A stretch of 64,000 nt of DNA from Acidobacteria bacterium SCN 69-37 (GTDB lineage Bacteria; Acidobacteriota; Vicinamibacteria; Vicinamibacterales; SCN-69-37). Of this stretch, positions 7,449 through 55,807 are shown one piece after another. The notes under the pieces were generated by a model. That model worked only from the letters and a program-made list of their open reading frames with translations, ran no database searches and had not been told where the DNA came from. The DNA lies in the NCBI GenBank assembly GCA_001724025.1, contig MEDJ01000001.1:1-64000 (forward strand), in the 5' to 3' direction. Every line of letters starts with the position of its first letter. The first letter of the stretch is position 1. Position numbers and translations under genes: made by a program.

Positions 7449-8807
7449 CTACAGATCCTGGGGGCGAGTCGGTCCAAGCGACGGAGGGTATCCACTCCCT
7501 GCGACTCGCTTTCGTCTCCGCCAGAGCGTGGTTCGGCTGATGCCGAGGGCGCGCGCCGCGAGAGTCTGGTTACCATCGTAGTGTACCAGGGCGTCCCTTA
7601 CGCCATTCACAACCGCATCGCGTTGCGGCCGTTCGGCCTCTTCTCGGACCCGACTGTCAAGGCTCGGAAGATCCTGCGCGTCAATCATGGGTCCCGAGAC
7701 ACCAACGAACGCCTGCTCCATCACGTTCTGCAACTCGCGAATGTTTCCCGGCCATTGATGATTCCCCAGCGCCGCGAGGGCCGCAGCTGACAACCCGGCC
7801 TCGGGGCGACGAAGACGGGCCGCCACTTGGCGCAGGCTGAGACGCGCGAGTTCAGGAATGTCGTCGGGACGGTCCCGGAGAGGCGGCACATTGATGGACA
7901 GGACGCTCAGACGGTAAAACAGGTCGGAGCGAAATCGACCCGACCGCATATCTTCACGAAGATCCCGATTTGTCGCAGCGATAACCCGGACGTCCACGTG
8001 GCGTATAGAGGATTCGCCGATACGTCGGACTTCCCGATTGTCTAGGAAGCGGAGCAGACGCACTTGAAGTGTCGGCGGGATCTCACCAATCTCATCAAGA
8101 AAGAGGACACCTCCAGCCGCCGCTTCAATGACCCCCTTCGAGTCCTCCACTGCTCCCGTGAATGCGCCGCGTCGATGCCCGAAGAGCTCGCTGTCGATGA
8201 GCGACTCCGTCAGTGTCCCGCAGTTGATCGGTAGGAACAGGGCGCGTGCTCGAGAGCTCGCCCGATGAATTCTCCGAGCGGCGCTTTCCTTGCCGGTGCC
8301 GGTTTCGCCTGTGATCAGGACGGGACTGTCGACCGCTGCCACCGCATCCAGCCTCGCGCCGAGTCGCCGGGTGACCGGATCCACCGCAACGAAGCAGTCG
8401 TACGACGACACGCGGGACATTGACTTACTGTGTTCGGCGGTAGTCCGGCCGCGGCCCTCTTCGCCGGCAACACGAACCGCGTCCAAGGTCCTCATCAGAT
8501 GCGCGACGTCGATCGGTGTCGTTAGATAGTCATGCGCTCCGGCCTTGACGACGCGCACAACCTCGGCGGCGTCGGGTTGAGCGCCGACCACGATGAACGG
8601 TGCGCCGAATCGCTTGAGCCGTCCTAGAACATGCTCGGAGAGAGCAGCCTGCGCGTTGACGAGTACCACGTCCGCCCGCCGAGTGGTCAGGGCAATCGCC
8701 CACGAAGTGACATCAACCGGTGTAGCGATGTGTCCCGCCTCGCGAACTGCAGTGATCAAGTTCGAGAGGCCGGCTATGGGAGAACCAACGATTAATACGT
8801 GTGCCAT
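7449..8807 (-). CDS. Sigma-54-dependent transcriptional activator with pseudo-receiver domain
   Basis: A 452-residue NtrC-type activator. Residues 1-110 form a receiver-like domain, but the acidic pair is replaced by Gly-Ser, the phosphoacceptor Asp by Asn (VVLVNAQ) and the conserved Lys by Thr (LTTPID), so classical phosphorylation is excluded. The AAA+ domain has Walker A GETGTGKE (about 170), the sigma-54 contact loop GAFTGA (about 215) and Walker B FLDEIGE (about 240). A Fis-type helix-turn-helix closes the protein (NQTLAARALGISRTTLWRR). No histidine kinase is encoded nearby. It is the last gene of the carrier/glycosyltransferase operon and most likely drives the promoter at 6802-6815. 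Confidence 0.9.
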   Translation of the reverse strand: MAHVLIVGSPIAGLSNLITAVREAGHIATPVDVTSWAIALTTRRADVVLVNAQAALSEHVLGRLKRFGAPFIVVGAQPDAAEVVRVVKAGAHDYLTTPIDVAHLMRTLDAVRVAGEEGRGRTTAEHSKSMSRVSSYDCFVAVDPVTRRLGARLDAVAAVDSPVLITGETGTGKESAARRIHRASSRARALFLPINCGTLTESLIDSELFGHRRGAFTGAVEDSKGVIEAAAGGVLFLDEIGEIPPTLQVRLLRFLDNREVRRIGESSIRHVDVRVIAATNRDLREDMRSGRFRSDLFYRLSVLSINVPPLRDRPDDIPELARLSLRQVAARLRRPEAGLSAAALAALGNHQWPGNIRELQNVMEQAFVGVSGPMIDAQDLPSLDSRVREEAERPQRDAVVNGVRDALVHYDGNQTLAARALGISRTTLWRRRKRVAGSGYPPSLGPTRPQDL

Positions 8808-8852
8808 ATATCCCCGCGTCTTGAACTGGACCGACGGTTCTGCCTCAGACTT

Positions 8853-9701
8853 CTAGTCGCCGAGGGAGGCGAGCGACCCGCCCGAGAGAGTGTCCGCTTG
8901 ACCTGGGCCCACGTATCCGAACCACTGGGCCACTGCCCAGACATCAGGGTCCTGCAACGCTTCCCGATCAACGGCCGCTAGGCGTGGCGTCTGCTCCAGC
9001 CATCCTCGTCTCACCGTCTTCAGAACATCAGGCGACAAGTCGCACGTCGATACATCGACGAACTGCGCCAGTTCCTCGATGAAGGTTGCGGACCGTTCTT
9101 GGATATCCTCGTACCTGACAAGCATTACGCCAGGCTCTCGGTCACGCGCGAACGACGAAGCAACAGAACGCCAGTGGCGAAGGAAGGCCGTCGGTCCTCC
9201 GACCTCGACAAGAAGCCCCTGCGTCTTGCCCTCGACCTCGGTGGCCCGAGCCGATGCCAGACAGCTCGCCGGGTTGCGCACGACGAGAATGCAACGACAC
9301 AGCGGGAACACAGCGCGCAAGAACGCCACCGTCGACCATCCATGCCGCACCTCCTTAAACCCCCAACAGTGCTTCCCCGTCGTCCTAGCGGGAACACCTA
9401 GGTAGCGATCGAGGAACGTCGCTATCGCATCAAGGCACTCCGATGGCTCCGGATTCAGCATCGCTATCCAAGCGCCGGCGTGTCGCACGCCAAACTCATG
9501 TTCCGCCTGTCGGGAGAGGAACCGCATGCCATCTAGAGTGTGCTTGATCTTCTGCAGGTGGTCGCAGATTCCGCGGTTCTCACCCCAAATGTGCACGTCA
9601 GGATGTGAGCACAAGAGTCTCTGGATCAGCGTACTGCCGCAGCGCCAACCCGTGCCGAATATGAAGATCGGTCGCATCGATCGCGGCTCCACGTGTCGCA
9701 T
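8853..9701 (-). CDS. PAPS-dependent sulfotransferase
   Basis: A 282-residue enzyme of the Sulfotransfer family. The 5'-phosphosulfate loop FGTGWRCGSTLIQRL lies at the N-terminus and the 3'-phosphate-binding segment LVVRNPASCLASARA at about residue 135. It would move sulfate from PAPS to a hydroxyl or amine of a small acceptor. It sits 14 bases after the adenylation gene, so the acceptor is probably the product of that pathway. An ATG at 9677 with GGAG in front is an alternative start. Sulfate-activation genes are not in the window. Confidence 0.85.
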   Translation of the reverse strand: MRHVEPRSMRPIFIFGTGWRCGSTLIQRLLCSHPDVHIWGENRGICDHLQKIKHTLDGMRFLSRQAEHEFGVRHAGAWIAMLNPEPSECLDAIATFLDRYLGVPARTTGKHCWGFKEVRHGWSTVAFLRAVFPLCRCILVVRNPASCLASARATEVEGKTQGLLVEVGGPTAFLRHWRSVASSFARDREPGVMLVRYEDIQERSATFIEELAQFVDVSTCDLSPDVLKTVRRGWLEQTPRLAAVDREALQDPDVWAVAQWFGYVGPGQADTLSGGSLASLGD

Positions 9702-9715
9702 TGTGACATTTGCTC

Positions 9716-11275
9716 CTATATGTATCTACCATGTTCAAAACAAGCCAGAGCCCGACGATTCCGCTTGCCATTCGCGGTTGTGGGGAGAGCGCGGACGAGT
9801 CGGTAGTCGGTCGGCCGCATGAACTCCGGGAGTCCGCGCCTAGCGATCGCGGCTAGGGCCAGGAGGATCACGGTCGTTTCCGACGTCGAACGATCAGACG
9901 GCGTCAGCTCCACGTAAGCCACCAGCTCCGTCAAGTTCTGTGCGGCATCCTCCGCAACGACCGTCACCGACACGACGTCTGGATGTGCCTCTAGAGGCTG
10001 TTCAACCTCTCGAGGCTCGATCCTGAAGCCACGGATCTTCAGTTGATCATCCTTCCGACCGCGATAGACGAGTGTTCCGTCGTGACGTCTCACAGCGAGA
10101 TCACCCGAGTCGTAGAATCGTGAGCACCCAGGACGACCGCCACGCCTCGTTACAAAGCGAGCGGCCGTCAGCTCGGGATCGCCCAGATAGCCGCGGGCGA
10201 CGCCGGGACCACCGACGTGCATGCAACCCGTGACGCCAGGCGGGACGGGACAACCGTCATCATCCAACAGCAACACGTCTAGGTCGGCTATGGGTACCCC
10301 GATGATGCTGTCGGTCGAGGTCAATTCGGCCTCACGAACACGGTGGTAAGTCACATGTACTGTCGTTTCTGTGATCCCGTACATGTTGAAGAGTTCCGGC
10401 GACTGGTCGCCGAACGTGTCGATCCACGGTTTGAGCGAGCCGTTTGTGAGCGCTTCGCCGCCGAAGATGATGAGCCGTAGGCCGGATGTGATTCGTCCGC
10501 GGTCAACGCATGCTCGGCTGAACTGCCGAAAGGCGGTCGGAGTGATATTCACAACGGTCACCCTTCGCTGTTCAACGAGCTTGACCAGTTCCAAAGGTGA
10601 CCGGCCGACAGTCGGAGGCACGATCACCAACCGCGCGCCGAACAACAGGGCGCCCCAGATTTCCCAGACGGAGAAGTCAAACCCCGGAGAGTGGAGCATC
10701 GTCCAGACATCGTCGTGGCCGAAGCGATAGAGCGGCGCTGTCTGCTCGAACAACCGAAGCACGCTCCGCTGCTCGACCATTACGCCCTTTGGCGACCCGG
10801 TCGAGCCCGATGTGTAGATGACGTAGGCCAGATCCGTCCCCGTTTGAACCGAGCACGGATTCGCCTGGCTCGAGACAGCTGCGAGTTCGTCCCTTGAGAA
10901 CGAAACGACTTGAACTTGCGATCGATCAAGCGACGGGACGGCCGTACATGTCGCCAGAAGGGACGTCACCCCGCTGTGTCTGATGACAAATCTGACGCGG
11001 TCCATCGGGTAGGCCGGATCGATCGGGACATAGGCGCGCCCAGCCTTGAGAATGGCCAGCATTCCAATAATCAGCTCGATCCCACGTTCGGCGTAGAGCC
11101 CAACGAGTTCCTGCGACGGCGGCAGTATCGTCTCAATGCGGCGTGCCAATATGCCTGACGACCGGCTGAGTTCTCCATAGGTGATGTCCTGATCGCCATA
11201 GTGCACGGCGATGGCCTCTGGCCTGCGTGCGGCGCAGCGTTCGAACGCCTCTGCAAGCGATCTCGCAGCGATCAT
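9716..11275 (-). CDS. Stand-alone NRPS adenylation enzyme, threonine code
   Basis: A 519-residue amino-acid adenylation domain with all core motifs: A3 YTSGSTGSPKG, A4 FDFSVWE, A5 NMYGITETT, A7 YDSGDLAVR, A8 KIRGFRIEPREVE and A10 LPTTANGK. Aligning the pocket by eye to GrsA gives D-F-W-N-I-G-M-V-H-K, which is the established code for L-threonine. No condensation, carrier or thioesterase domain is attached. The start overlaps the stop of the glycosyltransferase gene by 4 bases, so the two are translationally coupled. It would charge the free carrier protein at 12502-12801. Confidence 0.9.
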   Translation of the reverse strand: MIAARSLAEAFERCAARRPEAIAVHYGDQDITYGELSRSSGILARRIETILPPSQELVGLYAERGIELIIGMLAILKAGRAYVPIDPAYPMDRVRFVIRHSGVTSLLATCTAVPSLDRSQVQVVSFSRDELAAVSSQANPCSVQTGTDLAYVIYTSGSTGSPKGVMVEQRSVLRLFEQTAPLYRFGHDDVWTMLHSPGFDFSVWEIWGALLFGARLVIVPPTVGRSPLELVKLVEQRRVTVVNITPTAFRQFSRACVDRGRITSGLRLIIFGGEALTNGSLKPWIDTFGDQSPELFNMYGITETTVHVTYHRVREAELTSTDSIIGVPIADLDVLLLDDDGCPVPPGVTGCMHVGGPGVARGYLGDPELTAARFVTRRGGRPGCSRFYDSGDLAVRRHDGTLVYRGRKDDQLKIRGFRIEPREVEQPLEAHPDVVSVTVVAEDAAQNLTELVAYVELTPSDRSTSETTVILLALAAIARRGLPEFMRPTDYRLVRALPTTANGKRNRRALACFEHGRYI

Positions 11276-12486
11276 GAGCGCACGACCACTTCGATGATGT
11301 CTGCCGCCCGAGTGAGGCCATTCGCCGCCGCAATGTGCGCACGGACGCGGCCGGCTGCCTCCCGATAGCGGCGGTCTGAGAGAAGGGCGTCGACCGCCGC
11401 CGTCAGTCGATCGACTGTCAGCCGACGCAACGGCACGACGCGCCCAACCCTCGCTCGGCGAATTCTGGCCGCCACGCCTGGCTGGTCGTCAGTAATCGGC
11501 ACTGCAACAAGGGGTACACCATGGGTTAATGCTTCCAAGGTAGTATTCAGGCCTGCGTGAGTAATGCAGATAGAGGCTGCCGAGAGAAGCTCGAGTTGAG
11601 GAGCGTACTGAACGACGATCGGCGAACCGGGTAGCGTGGGGAGTTCGTTTGGCTCGAAGAACCCGCCGAGCGAGAGAATCAGCTGAACCGGCAGGACGGA
11701 GCATGCTGCGGCTATCGTATGAAATACTTCGACGGCCCGATTACGAACGGTTCCGAGTGTCGCATACACGATCGGCCGTCCGTCCAGTGCTTCCCACGGG
11801 AACCACACGTGGTGTCGTCCACGACCATCGAGAAACGGGCCGGTGTAGTACAGATGTGGAGGCCGAGGGCGTGGTAGCTCAAGGCACTCTGGGAGTTGGG
11901 CGACGATCGCTCGGGACGAAAAGAAGTCGTTGAGCGAATTGTGAGGCGGCAGGTTCCATGCCGCCCTCTGCCGATTGACCAGCTGAATCACGCCACCAAC
12001 CGCGCGAACGAGCGCGCGATTTGCACCCCGGTTTCTGCGCCGCGCGTGGCGGCCATCGCCACTGCCCCACCCAACCGTATGTGGCGGCGTCGAGTCGTCG
12101 AGGAACACCGGCGGAAAGAAGCTTACGTTCACAAAAGGTAGCCCCAGCCTGTCGGCCACACTCCCGGCAGCCAGGTCACACTGGTCGACGACGAACGCGT
12201 CCACACCAGCGGCCTTTGCCGCAGTCGTCCCTTCATCGAGCACGCATTTCGCCTGATGCAGCATTAGGCCGGGCGTCGCGAACTCCCCCGCGTGAGGTCG
12301 CCAGGGCGCCGCGGTTCCGATAGGAGCCCAGCGGACGCCCGCCGCTTTCAGCATGCCCCTCGCTCGCAGGTCTTGAAAGCAGGTGACCTCGTGACCACGG
12401 GCCATCAGTTCTCGCCCGAGCGCTCCCATGGGATAGAGGTGTCCGCTACCTTGAATACACCACAGTCCGACGTGCATGACGCGCAC
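11272..12486 (-). CDS. GT1-family (UGT/macrolide-type) glycosyltransferase
   Basis: A 404-residue GT-B enzyme. The N-terminal acceptor domain begins MHVGLWCIQGSGHLYPMGAL and the C-terminal donor domain contains VQYAPQLELLSAASICITHA and the sugar-nucleotide motif HAGLNTTLEALTHGVP. Relatives glycosylate small natural products using UDP- or dTDP-sugars. The GTG at 12486 or the ATG at 12477 could be the start. It lies 15 bases after the carrier-protein gene and overlaps the adenylation gene, so its acceptor may be a carrier-bound or released threonine derivative; that is inference. Confidence 0.85.
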   Translation of the reverse strand: MRVMHVGLWCIQGSGHLYPMGALGRELMARGHEVTCFQDLRARGMLKAAGVRWAPIGTAAPWRPHAGEFATPGLMLHQAKCVLDEGTTAAKAAGVDAFVVDQCDLAAGSVADRLGLPFVNVSFFPPVFLDDSTPPHTVGWGSGDGRHARRRNRGANRALVRAVGGVIQLVNRQRAAWNLPPHNSLNDFFSSRAIVAQLPECLELPRPRPPHLYYTGPFLDGRGRHHVWFPWEALDGRPIVYATLGTVRNRAVEVFHTIAAACSVLPVQLILSLGGFFEPNELPTLPGSPIVVQYAPQLELLSAASICITHAGLNTTLEALTHGVPLVAVPITDDQPGVAARIRRARVGRVVPLRRLTVDRLTAAVDALLSDRRYREAAGRVRAHIAAANGLTRAADIIEVVVRS

Positions 12487-51654: not shown

Positions 51655-51940
51655 TTGACGACGCGGCGGATCGACGTCGACGGGTCTTCTATCCGACTGC
51701 GGCACCTCGTCTGCGTCACTGCGTTCGGGCGCGTGTGTCGGTGTCGCGGATCGCGTGCAGGACGTGCCGGGGCGCGTGTCCTGATTCGACGAGTCGTGTG
51801 CCTCACTCGACGACGCTTCTGCGTCGGATCAACCGGTCGTCTGCATCACGTCGACGCCCCGCGTGCATCACGTTGACGAGGCGCGTGAGTCACTCCGACG
51901 ACCCGCGTGACCGACCTGACGACGATCCGGCACGGCAACG
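51655..51940 (+). repeat. Array A: about 13 degenerate 21-22 bp tandem repeats
   Basis: Units begin at 51655, 51677, 51699, 51721, 51743, 51765, 51787, 51808, 51830, 51851, 51873, 51895 and 51917. The clearest read TCGACG-x-x-GCGTG-x-x-TCAC; GACG near the start and GTG-xx-TCAC at the end recur. Unit length is 21-22 bp, so the series is not coding. It is divergent in sequence but strictly periodic. Confidence 0.75.
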
Positions 51941-51981
51941 TGTTGATGGCAACGGACATGCCCAACGGGTCGCCGATCGTC

Positions 51982-52274
51982 GTCAGGAAGGTCACGCGAC
52001 CTGTTCAGGTGATGCCGCGCAGGCGTCGGAGTGAGACACGCGCCCGGTCACAGTGGATCACGCGATCTGGAGACCCGATGCGCGCGATCCGTCAGGTGAT
52101 GCCGGTGATCTGTTGCCGCGAGTCTGGCGACCTGGAAGGTGATGTCGGCGACCCGTTCTGGCTGCACTGGTGAACCGTTGATGCAATGCAGGTGACATGT
52201 CCAGGTGAGACACGCGCGCCGGCGGGGAAGTCGGGTGAGCCGTTGGGGGAGTCGGATGACTTGTTGCAGTCATC
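51982..52274 (-). repeat. Array B: about 13 degenerate 21-22 bp repeats, opposite orientation
   Basis: Units begin at 51982, 52003, 52025, 52047, 52069, 52091, 52112, 52134, 52155, 52177, 52199, 52221 and 52242. Most start GT(C/T) or GGA and carry GGTGA and CACGCG or GGCGA-like blocks, which are the reverse complement of array A motifs. The two arrays meet tail to tail around 51941-51981. Confidence 0.75.
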
Positions 52275-52526
52275 GCCGCGGGCTCCGCGACCGGCGCGAT
52301 CCTGTGCCGTCGCGGAGGCTCGAGGAGAACGACGGTTCTCTGTCTCTTTGCTGCCGCAACACGCCTCCGGCCTCTCGTCCCTCACGCTGACACCTCCCGC
52401 CAGAGTTTGACGGCCGTCAACATTCGCCTTGCGCAGGCGCTGTAGCCTCGGCGCACCGTCGGTCACGGCCCACGAATCCGCGTGCGGCTGTCCAGGGCGG
52501 TTCAGCAGGAGGTCGAGGCGGGCACG
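52275..52526. other. Leader of the oxidase operon, no gene recognised
   Basis: No repeat unit or gene is visible here. TTGACGGCCGTCAA at 52407-52420 is a perfect 14-bp palindrome, a possible regulator site or promoter element for the oxidase operon that starts at 52527. Confidence 0.4.
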
Positions 52527-53540
52527 ATGCGAAAGCACATCTGGGCGATTACCGCGCTGGGCATACTGTGCGCACCGTGGGGCCGCGTCTCGGCAGACGT
52601 CGAGGCCGGACGGGCCGCCTTCCAGGCGAAGTGCATGGCGTGCCACTCCGTCGAGGTCAACGGTCCGGTCATGCTCGGCCCGAACCTGGTCGGAGTCACC
52701 GAACGCCGCGACGAGGCGTGGCTCATCCGCTGGATCATGGAACCGGATCGGATGCTCGCCGAGCAGGATCCCATCGCCGTCGCGCTCCTGAACCAGTTCA
52801 ACCAGATCCCGATGCCCCCCCTCGGCGTGTCGGAGACCGAGGCCCGCGATCTGCTGGACTACCTCGCCGACGTCAGCGCACAGGCCTCGGCGACACCGGC
52901 AGCCGCACCGGCTGCGGCGATCCCCCGGCCGACAGGCCTGGCCATCCTCACCGCCGGACTGGGACGGACCCAACTGGCCGGCCTCGTGATCTTCCTCGGC
53001 CTGTCGATGGCCGTGGTCGTGGCCTTCTGGCAGGTGGCCCGGAGCACCAGGCAACCGGTCCCGACCATCGACATGAAGGCGGCCTACAGGCTGCGCCGCA
53101 AGTTCTTCATCGGCACCTCCGTGCTCGTGCTCGGCACGCTGGCCGCCACCCTGCCGCGCACGCCGTACCCCGACGATCTCGAGACGCCCGATGAACTGGT
53201 CTACGTCACGGCCAGGCAATTCGGCTTTCTCTACAGCTCGGAACCGATCACGACCGACGCCGACATCGGGCAGGTGCCTGTGACGAACACCCTCGAAGTG
53301 CCCGTGGGCGCCCTCGTCGAATTCCGCGTGACGAGCCTCGACGTCACGCACAACTTCGCGCTCTACGATCCGGACCACGTCATCGTCGCCCAGACCCAGG
53401 CGATGCCCGGCTATGTGAATCGCCTGCGCGTGCGGCTGGCCGCCCCCGGCGTCTTCCGGGTCCTCTGCCTCGAATACTGCGGACTGGCGCATCACGCGAT
53501 GCAATCGACGCTGACGGCGCGTCGACTGACGGACGAATAG
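52527..53540 (+). CDS. Haem-copper oxidase subunit II with N-terminal cytochrome c domain
   Basis: A 337-residue exported protein. After the signal peptide comes a cytochrome c domain (CMACH at about 36-40, Met in IPMPPLG), then one membrane helix (about 150-175), then a cupredoxin with a complete CuA site: His in SLDVTHNFAL and CLEYCGLAHHAM (Cys, Glu, Cys, His, Met). In ordinary caa3 enzymes the haem domain is C-terminal, so the order is reversed here. It would pass electrons from haem c through CuA to subunit I. GAGG lies 8 bases before the ATG. Confidence 0.88.
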   Translation: MRKHIWAITALGILCAPWGRVSADVEAGRAAFQAKCMACHSVEVNGPVMLGPNLVGVTERRDEAWLIRWIMEPDRMLAEQDPIAVALLNQFNQIPMPPLGVSETEARDLLDYLADVSAQASATPAAAPAAAIPRPTGLAILTAGLGRTQLAGLVIFLGLSMAVVVAFWQVARSTRQPVPTIDMKAAYRLRRKFFIGTSVLVLGTLAATLPRTPYPDDLETPDELVYVTARQFGFLYSSEPITTDADIGQVPVTNTLEVPVGALVEFRVTSLDVTHNFALYDPDHVIVAQTQAMPGYVNRLRVRLAAPGVFRVLCLEYCGLAHHAMQSTLTARRLTDE

Positions 53541-53549
53541 CGGGGACCC

Positions 53550-54968
53550 ATGGAACTGAGCCCGAAACACACCCTGCACTGGATTGGCGTCACGTTCATC
53601 CTGTTCCCGCTGCTGCTGCTGGCGGGGATGTTCATGCGCGCCATCCAGGCGAACACCCTGGCCTCGACGCAGTCGTGGTTCTATCCGATGATGACGCTGC
53701 ACGGCGTCGGCATGGCCGGTCTGTGGTGGGTCGCCTCCATGGCCTGTGCGTCCCGCGTGCTGACACGGTACACGAAGCCCAGCGCCGCGGTCTCGACCTT
53801 CGCGCTGATCGGGACGATTCTCGGCGTGCTGCTCCTGCTGGCCAGCGTCCTGTTCGGCCGCTTTGCCGCCGGCTGGTATTTCCTCTACCCGCTGCCGTTC
53901 TCGGTCGGCTGGCCGGCCTGGGCCACGCTGACCTTCTTCGTGTCACTCACCGTGCTCGGTGTGACATGGCTCGTCTGGACGCTCGATCTGCTGCGCGCGA
54001 TCGCACGCAAGTACACCATCAGCCAGGCGCTCGGCTGGCACTACATCCGCGGCGTCGAAGGGCCCGACGTCCCACCGGCCATCCTGATCGTGACCACCAG
54101 CCTGATTGCCGCGGTCGCGTGCCTGCTCGCGGGCGTGGCCGTGCTGCTGCTGTTCTATTACGAGATGCTCACCGGCACGCGCAACGACGCGCTGCTGATG
54201 AAGAACCTGACGTTCCTGTTCGGACACCTGCTGGTCAACCTGAGCCTGTACCTGGCCGTGGCCGTGGTCTACGACACGTTCCCGCACTACACGGGCCGCC
54301 CATGGCACACCAACAGGGTGGTCGCGATTTCGTGGAACGCGGTCCTGGCCATCGTCCTGCTGGCGTACTTCCACCACCTGTACATGGACTTCGTGCAGCC
54401 GACCTCGCTCCAGTACGTCGGACAGATTGCGTCCTACATGAGTTCCATTCCCGCGGCCGTCGTCACGGTCTTCGGGGCGGTGACGATCGTCTACCGCGCG
54501 CCGGTGCGCTGGAGCCTGGGCTTCACGCTGCTGTTCTTCGGCCTGATGGGGTGGGGCATCGGCGGACTCGGGGCCGTGATCGATTCCACCATCGCGCTCA
54601 ACTCGAAGTTCCACAACACCCTGTGGGTGCCCGCCCACTTCCACTCCTACATGATCGAGGGATTGGTGCTGATGGTGCTGGGCTACTTCTACCACTACTG
54701 CCAGGAGCGCGCGCGGATGCCGGAAAGCCTCCCGTTCCAGAAGACCATCGTCACGCTGATGCTGGTGGGCGGATACGGGTTCCTGCTGATGTTCTACCTG
54801 GCCGGCGCGCAGTCGGTGCCGCGGCGCTACGCCATCTATCCCGCGGAACTGTCGCACGGCGCGATCTACGCGGGCATCGCCGTGGTGTTCGCCGCGGTCT
54901 TCCTGCTCGGGCTCCTCTTCTACATCTACGAGACCGGCCGGAACTGGGTGAGAGCCTATGGGGCGTGA
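53550..54968 (+). CDS. B-type haem-copper oxidase subunit I-like protein, active-site Tyr replaced
   Basis: A 472-residue protein with about 12 helices. Haem and CuB histidines are present: LHGVGM (about 50), FGHLLVN (CuB His about 225), YFHHLYMDF (two CuB His about 273) and HNTLWVPAHFHSYM (about 355-367). The position four residues after the CuB His, occupied by the cross-linked Tyr in O2 reductases (HPEVY), is Asn here (HLLVN). Such replacements are known from NO-reducing relatives, so the terminal acceptor is uncertain. It is encoded with CuA subunit II and SCO. Confidence 0.88.
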   Translation: MELSPKHTLHWIGVTFILFPLLLLAGMFMRAIQANTLASTQSWFYPMMTLHGVGMAGLWWVASMACASRVLTRYTKPSAAVSTFALIGTILGVLLLLASVLFGRFAAGWYFLYPLPFSVGWPAWATLTFFVSLTVLGVTWLVWTLDLLRAIARKYTISQALGWHYIRGVEGPDVPPAILIVTTSLIAAVACLLAGVAVLLLFYYEMLTGTRNDALLMKNLTFLFGHLLVNLSLYLAVAVVYDTFPHYTGRPWHTNRVVAISWNAVLAIVLLAYFHHLYMDFVQPTSLQYVGQIASYMSSIPAAVVTVFGAVTIVYRAPVRWSLGFTLLFFGLMGWGIGGLGAVIDSTIALNSKFHNTLWVPAHFHSYMIEGLVLMVLGYFYHYCQERARMPESLPFQKTIVTLMLVGGYGFLLMFYLAGAQSVPRRYAIYPAELSHGAIYAGIAVVFAAVFLLGLLFYIYETGRNWVRAYGA

Positions 54969-55776
54969 CCGCCGGCGCACCGGCGCGCGCCTGGCGTGGA
55001 CAGGCGTGACACTGCTGTCAATCCTCGCGATCGCGTGGCCGGCGTCGGTGTCGGCCTCGCGCGGGGACGAGCCTGTCGATCTGCTGCGCGAGGAATCGAG
55101 ACATCTCTACGGTCCGGTTCCCGACATCGACGTTCAGCTGATCGATGGCCGACACGTCCGTCTCGCCGACCTGTGGCGCGACACGCCGCTCCTGGTCACC
55201 CTCTTCTACAGCCACTGCGCGGGCACGTGCACGCCCTTCCTGCGGTCGCTGCACACGGCCGTGGGCCAGAACGGGGGACTCGGCAGCGAGTACCGCGTGC
55301 TGAGCCTGAGCTTCGATCCCCACGACACCCTCGAGAATGCCAGGGCAACGGCCGCGGCCGTGGGCGTCGAGCCCGGCGACGCGTGGCTGTTCGGCACCGG
55401 CACGCCGGCCGACGTCGCACGCCTCGCCGAGGCCGTCGGCTTCTGGTACGAGCCGGTCCAGGCCACCAACCAGTTCGATCACCCGTCGCTCGTCGCGGCC
55501 GTCCGCGACGGCTCTGTGGTCCGCGTACTGCTCGGCACGACGGTCAATGCCTCGCGCCTCAAATCCGCCCTGTTCGAATTGAAGGGCGTCTACGTCCCCC
55601 TGTACAGCCGCCCGGGCGAAAACGTACTGTTCCGCTGCCTGCAGATCGACGCGCTGACCCAGGAGGTCCGCTTCGACTGGGGGATGCTCCTGCTCGTCGT
55701 GCCCGGTCTGCTGGCCCTGGCCATCGGCGGCACCATCTTCCGGACGACGGGTCGGCCGACGTCACGCGAAGCCTGA
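54958..55776 (+). CDS. SCO1/SenC-family CuA assembly protein
   Basis: A 272-residue membrane-anchored thioredoxin-fold protein: copper site HCAGTCTPF (CxxxC at about 87) and His in NQFDHPSLV (about 173). A C-terminal hydrophobic segment (MLLLVVPGLLALAIGGTIF) gives a second anchor. It inserts copper into the CuA centre of subunit II. The ATG overlaps the subunit I stop by 11 bases, so the three form one operon. Confidence 0.92.
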   Translation: MGRDRRRTGARLAWTGVTLLSILAIAWPASVSASRGDEPVDLLREESRHLYGPVPDIDVQLIDGRHVRLADLWRDTPLLVTLFYSHCAGTCTPFLRSLHTAVGQNGGLGSEYRVLSLSFDPHDTLENARATAAAVGVEPGDAWLFGTGTPADVARLAEAVGFWYEPVQATNQFDHPSLVAAVRDGSVVRVLLGTTVNASRLKSALFELKGVYVPLYSRPGENVLFRCLQIDALTQEVRFDWGMLLLVVPGLLALAIGGTIFRTTGRPTSREA

Positions 55777-55807
55777 CGTCGCGATCTGCGGCAGAATAGG
55801 CACCGCC

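Follow-up and report, generated by a model that had tools for sequence, protein, structure and literature searches.

A norS-norY-senC operon in an acidobacterial genome predicted to encode an sNOR-type nitric oxide reductase

The residue found at the position of the cross-linked tyrosine differs among the enzymes of the haem-copper superfamily: oxygen reductases have Tyr, cNOR and qNOR Glu, sNOR and CuANOR Asn, eNOR Gln and gNOR Asp (PMC8756737, Table A4). Here we analyse a stretch of 64,000 nucleotides from Acidobacteria bacterium SCN 69-37 (the window) in which an oxidase-like subunit I carries Asn at this position and is encoded between a CuA-bearing subunit II and an SCO-type copper chaperone. 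What does such an enzyme reduce? A sequence-only reading of the locus had suggested either a NO reductase of the B-derived groups or a novel reductase. NO reductase is the best-supported part of that suggestion; novelty is not supported, as publications on the family go back at least to 2007 (Stein et al., cited in PMC8756737 and PMC3475470). The gene is a further member of sNOR, a known kind of enzyme rather than a new one, in an acidobacterial genome. From the sequence relationships, norS-norY-senC most likely encode an sNOR, which within the haem-copper superfamily would be a NO reductase dependent on cytochrome c.

The features of the locus are as follows.

52191..55793, + strand: whole norS-norY-senC unit, 94 % identical in nucleotides to a unit in a genome from another family of the order
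52527..53540, + strand: norS-like subunit II with a cytochrome c domain at the N-terminus and a CuA cupredoxin domain (CLEYCGLAHHAM), both from Pfam matches, and two membrane helices read by eye
52599..52874, + strand: cytochrome c part of subunit II, with CMACH; PF00034 spans residues 40-131 of the ORF starting at 52482
53253..53504, + strand: CuA domain of subunit II, PF00116, residues 258-341 of the ORF starting at 52482
53550..54968, + strand: norY-like subunit I, the haem-copper catalytic subunit, from PF00115, a tree clade with support 100/98 and an AF2 model
54225..54239, + strand: codons of the diagnostic motif HLLVN, from the CuB ligand His226 to Asn230, numbered from the ATG at 53550
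54372..54377, + strand: CuB ligands His275-His276, present in 79/80 and 80/80 relatives (80 of 251)
54958..55776, + strand: senC/SCO1-type copper chaperone with CxxxC, PF02630 (E 8.8e-7, 29.4 bits, cut-off 22.8)

The norS-norY-senC order with its CuA subunit is complete in the window. The subunit I gene is an intact reading frame of 472 amino acids and matches the COX1 profile PF00115 with E 1.4e-43 (149.8 bits, cut-off 34.8). Its AF2 model (pLDDT 88.5) has 12 long helices and aligns with A-type oxidases with Z up to 38.4 over 449 residues, so the modelled fold is an ordinary one. Subunit II matches COX2 (E 2.9e-9) and Cytochrom_C (E 2.5e-8), both above cut-off; its two membrane helices were read by eye, and the GTG at 52482 is an alternative start. 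The senC/SCO1 gene overlaps norY by 11 bases. Beyond it lie a Cys/Met-metabolism enzyme and a hydroxyacid dehydrogenase, and a winged-helix/TPR regulator stands further upstream of norS; among the genes flanking the three in the window, none points to NO. To the left of the operon, the intergenic sequence 51735-52200 seemingly contains degenerate short repeats (GCGTGCATCACG, CAGGTGATG-like words), as judged by eye.

The active site of subunit I retains all six haem and CuB histidines (His51, His226, His275-276, His363 and His365), as the first reading had stated. Its GHLLVN aligns with GHPEVY of human cytochrome c oxidase (5z62), which puts Asn230, four residues after the CuB ligand His226, on the cross-linked Tyr; the alignment to the Paracoccus enzyme 3ehb places it likewise. 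In a multiple alignment of subunit I with 47 other haem-copper subunits from this and other genomes, A-type proteins read GHPEVY or SHPAVY, C-type GHNAVA, Gln-type GHSSQQ and the window protein GHLLVN. An A- or B-type oxygen reductase is rejected, as the Tyr four after the CuB His is missing and Asn230 stands there. On the suggested B-family origin, profile searches favoured neither side, with a best aa3 match of E 4e-25, a best ba3-type match of E 4e-23 and overlapping ranges; A-type enzymes come first in the fold comparison, with no ba3 entries among the best 50 matches listed. An eNOR is rejected as well: its Gln is Asn230 here, and the Gln-type proteins form a group of their own.

A C-type-like enzyme might draw its Tyr from another helix, and the sequence-only reading had named this as the observation that would overturn it. 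The C-type protein of the same genome (L003) has a Tyr six residues before the CuB His pair, which we take to be the cross-linked Tyr of C-type enzymes. It aligns with Val269 of the window protein. This column holds V in 55, I in 22 and F, L and A in one each of the 80 counted relatives (of 251), and never Tyr, so a C-type-like oxygen reductase with a Tyr supplied from the helix of the CuB His pair is rejected too.

How far is Asn230 shared? Scanning named genomes yielded 251 relatives, and the counts per relative cover the 80 of them that were kept; several of the 80 lie on the same contigs as loci from the window's class. By record titles they come from Acidobacteria, Burkholderiales, Gammaproteobacteria, Polyangiaceae, Bdellovibrionota, Bacteroidetes, Planctomycetota, Ca. 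Methylomirabilis and others. Within the class itself, a close homologue occurs in 13 of 193 genomes, the source genome included (E 5.9e-116 or better), the remaining class matches listed having E 3.2e-45 or weaker. Asn230 is present in 79 of the 80 relatives and in all 43 rows of the sNOR set of our tree. By these sequence comparisons it is neither a chance substitution nor a sequencing error, because both samples carry it. The ligand positions are equally constant (His226 in 79, His275 in 79, His276 in 80), and Tyr234, Tyr241, Tyr367 and Asp280 are each found in 80/80.

The one relative without Asn230 (L123, 6001-7392, on the contig of L018 in G056) has Tyr there. Two of its CuB ligands are gone too (His226 to Gln, His275 to Asn), and no SCO gene lies nearby; the CuA ligands of its subunit II are intact. 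Another locus (L039, 10142-12680, G141:C42) encodes, some 4.5 kb away from the sNOR, a second subunit I that is 33 % identical, reads HTLVN (Asn) and is accompanied by a separate cytochrome c-CuA subunit II. This protein may represent another Asn-type NOR group; the same contig also bears a gene read as qNOR-like.

The partner genes mostly accompany subunit I. A CuA subunit II lies directly upstream in 77/80 relatives, the three misses having less than 100 bases of upstream sequence, and an SCO gene lies downstream in 76/80. The pattern C.E.C[GA]..H..M is found in 76 of the 77 relatives with subunit II, and the exception, L113, looks frameshifted. In 24 of these 77 a tblastn match reaches the cytochrome c part of subunit II. 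In the available flanking sequence, NO-related queries matched at only 7/80 loci, and for L107, one of the seven, cbb3 is the better explanation; A-type oxidase matches occur at 4/80. The gene neighbourhood is weak evidence for NO metabolism.

We placed the protein in a haem-copper tree, as had been proposed, using 68 rows and IQ-TREE. The tree was built without B-type, bNOR or nNOR sequences and without a reference sNOR identified by accession. The sNOR set consists of 43 chosen rows: the window protein, five loci from its class, 35 of the 80 named loci and two homologues from ammonia oxidisers. This set is one side of a branch with support 100/98, apart from 15 A-type, three C-type and three Gln-type proteins, the last forming their own group with support 100/100. 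Four long rows, which carry our own presumed labels ('gNOR', 'qNORorNOD', 'cNOR' and 'N_second'), were left out of the group counts.

The link to named sNORs runs through the company that the window protein keeps on this branch (100/98), namely homologues from two genomes bearing ammonia monooxygenase (AMO) and from one Ca. Methylomirabilis genome. Among the 399 genomes of the order of a Burkholderiales relative, 12 match ammonia monooxygenase, and two of these 12 also match the window protein strongly (E 6e-87 and 9e-80, 38 %). Both homologues have a CuA subunit before them and an SCO gene after them; they are, however, only 37-38 % identical to the window protein and sit on the first branch of the sNOR set, a distance that counts against the sNOR reading. 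The best match in the Ca. Methylomirabilis genome is 48 % identical and has Asn; an sNOR is described for Ca. Methylomirabilis (PMC6094997). A norSY-senC-orf1 NOR cluster is described as frequent in ammonia oxidisers (PMC4940428).

The CuA subunit and SCO gene, against which the NO reductase had at first been weighed ('despite having CuA and SCO'), turn out to speak the other way. They are expected here, because sNOR and CuANOR/bNOR both carry a CuA subunit and SenC/SCO; the qCuANOR of Bacillus azotoformans was purified as a NO reductase and is described with Asn, a CuA subunit and a linked SenC (PMC3475470).

The gene layout, the ligands, the Asn, the family placement by tree and the denitrification genes are read from the sequences; what the enzyme reduces, how electrons reach it and what Asn230 does we infer as follows. 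Electrons would come from a c-type cytochrome of the periplasm or from the cytochrome c domain fused to subunit II, enter at CuA and pass through the low-spin haem to the haem/CuB pair. There, two NO would combine with two electrons and two protons to give N2O and water. Without the His-Tyr cofactor, the site would lack the extra electron and proton used by oxygen reductases to split O2 in one step; Asn230 would retain a polar side chain at the Tyr position. SenC/SCO would insert copper into CuA, CuB or both.

The alternative that survives best, although we regard it as unlikely, is that sNOR is mainly a high-affinity O2 reductase that works without a cross-linked Tyr and takes the electron from Tyr234 or another residue. 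For the sNOR of N. europaea such a role has been argued to be possible from transcription under O2 limitation, in a paper that also mentions that NO reduction in Nitrococcus mobilis has indirect support (PMC6967387), and three tyrosines (Tyr234, Tyr241 and Tyr367) are invariant in the 80 relatives. However, Asn replaces the Tyr in 79 of these 80, and Tyr234 lies eight residues from His226 on one helix, a geometry that would make a His-Tyr bond implausible in the model. The genome, moreover, already has two A-type oxidases and one C-type oxidase, and the related Asn-bearing CuANOR is described as a NO reductase (PMC3475470). The narrower proposition that O2 reduction is the main reaction of sNOR with Tyr234 as the candidate donor is less probable again; if true, it would be an exception to the requirement for the His-Tyr cofactor in haem-copper oxygen reductases. 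Cytochrome c-dependent NO reduction by sNOR remains our preferred reading.

The enzyme could also be a Bacillus-type CuANOR (bNOR, type I) rather than an sNOR, and the window does have the Asn, CuA and SenC of that type. We think this very improbable: in type I, subunit I is described as longer (1683-1707 bp, 13 helices) and subunit II as having one helix, with a small peptide in addition (PMC3475470), against 472 amino acids, a 12-helix model and two helices here, and bNOR is said to occur in Bacillota only (PMC11388526). Hardly credible is a decaying or inactive oxygen reductase that lost its Tyr, a loss that should cripple an oxidase and that the relative without two CuB histidines might seem to illustrate, given that Asn, the ligands and the two neighbouring partners are conserved in different phyla and the frames are intact.

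The main survey of these NO reductases is reportedly that of Murali et al. 2024 (PNAS). In PMC11388526, cNOR, qNOR, bNOR and eNOR are listed as biochemically characterised, and sNOR, gNOR and nNOR as proposed. Neither a report of a purified sNOR nor a demonstration of its activity was found in the literature consulted, and for sNOR together with Acidobacteriota that literature yielded one paper, PMC8906906, whose sNOR passages concern methane oxidisers; we make no claim of priority.

The rest of the genome supplies a context for NO reduction. It encodes a copper NirK fused to a cytochrome c (344.6 bits, cut-off 296.3) and a TAT-type NosZ (951.5 bits, cut-off 625), and no cd1-type NirS. Its six COX1 matches are two A-type proteins, one C-type, the sNOR, a Gln-type eNOR-like protein and one weak match below cut-off. 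The eNOR-like subunit I (L004, G000:C25:14742-16079) reads GHSSQQ and lies about 8 kb from nirK on one contig; no further haem-copper NO-reductase candidate was found in the genome beyond it and the sNOR. NirK and NosZ stand one step before and one step after NO reduction: NirK would make NO and NosZ would use N2O, which would leave the step between them to the two NOR candidates. One gene (L006), which we had provisionally labelled NnrS, gave no family match and is excluded from the evidence for NO.

How the operon reached this genome is suggested by its relatives. In the tree, the nearest rows to the window protein are Bdellovibrionota, Turneriella and Polyangiaceae records rather than members of its own class, and since they lie outside that class, the sequences point to transfer of sNOR between lineages. 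On a shorter time scale, window positions 52191-55793 are matched by positions 8587-12164 of locus L037 (G190:C69), at 94 % over 3.6 kb, and the rest of that 29-kb contig has no other match to the window. This pattern points to a recent transfer of norS-norY-senC as a unit, as judged from the nucleotide match; the contig may instead have been wrongly binned. The contig bearing the G190 sNOR also carries an eNOR-like protein 84 % identical to L004. A search for an empty site among 14 genomes of the family gave no clean one; in a single genome the operon's downstream neighbour could be recognised, but none of the other neighbours. A scan of a viral collection found nothing.

Members of the sNOR family tend to carry the annotation cytochrome c oxidase, as stated for KEGG (PMC11388526), so the role of the family in N2O formation is easily missed. 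Here, an acidobacterial genome with an sNOR also has NirK, NosZ and a second, Gln-type NOR candidate. The cytochrome c-fused subgroup and the operon shared at 94 % would be good systems for deciding between NO and O2.

Compared with known systems, the window operon is closest to sNOR, with which it shares the order subunit II, subunit I, SCO, the CuA site, Asn for Tyr, all the histidines and the clade. It differs in the cytochrome c domain on subunit II, seen in 24/77 relatives and lacking in the two ammonia-oxidiser proteins and the one Ca. Methylomirabilis protein scanned, and in having no orf1 after senC, whereas the published cluster includes orf1. The qCuANOR/bNOR of Bacillus azotoformans has Asn, CuA and a linked SenC in common with it and is set apart, by its description, by a longer subunit I, a one-helix subunit II and a small extra peptide. 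The description of CuANOR type II, in contrast, matches the window: Asn, SenC, a shorter subunit I of 12 helices and a subunit II whose N-terminal part has two helices (PMC3475470). The eNOR enzymes have the same haem-copper subunit I and CuA subunit II without a cross-linked Tyr and differ by their Gln. A-type cytochrome c oxidases share the fold, the ligands, CuA and SCO, but they have the Tyr and are about 15-25 % identical to the window protein.
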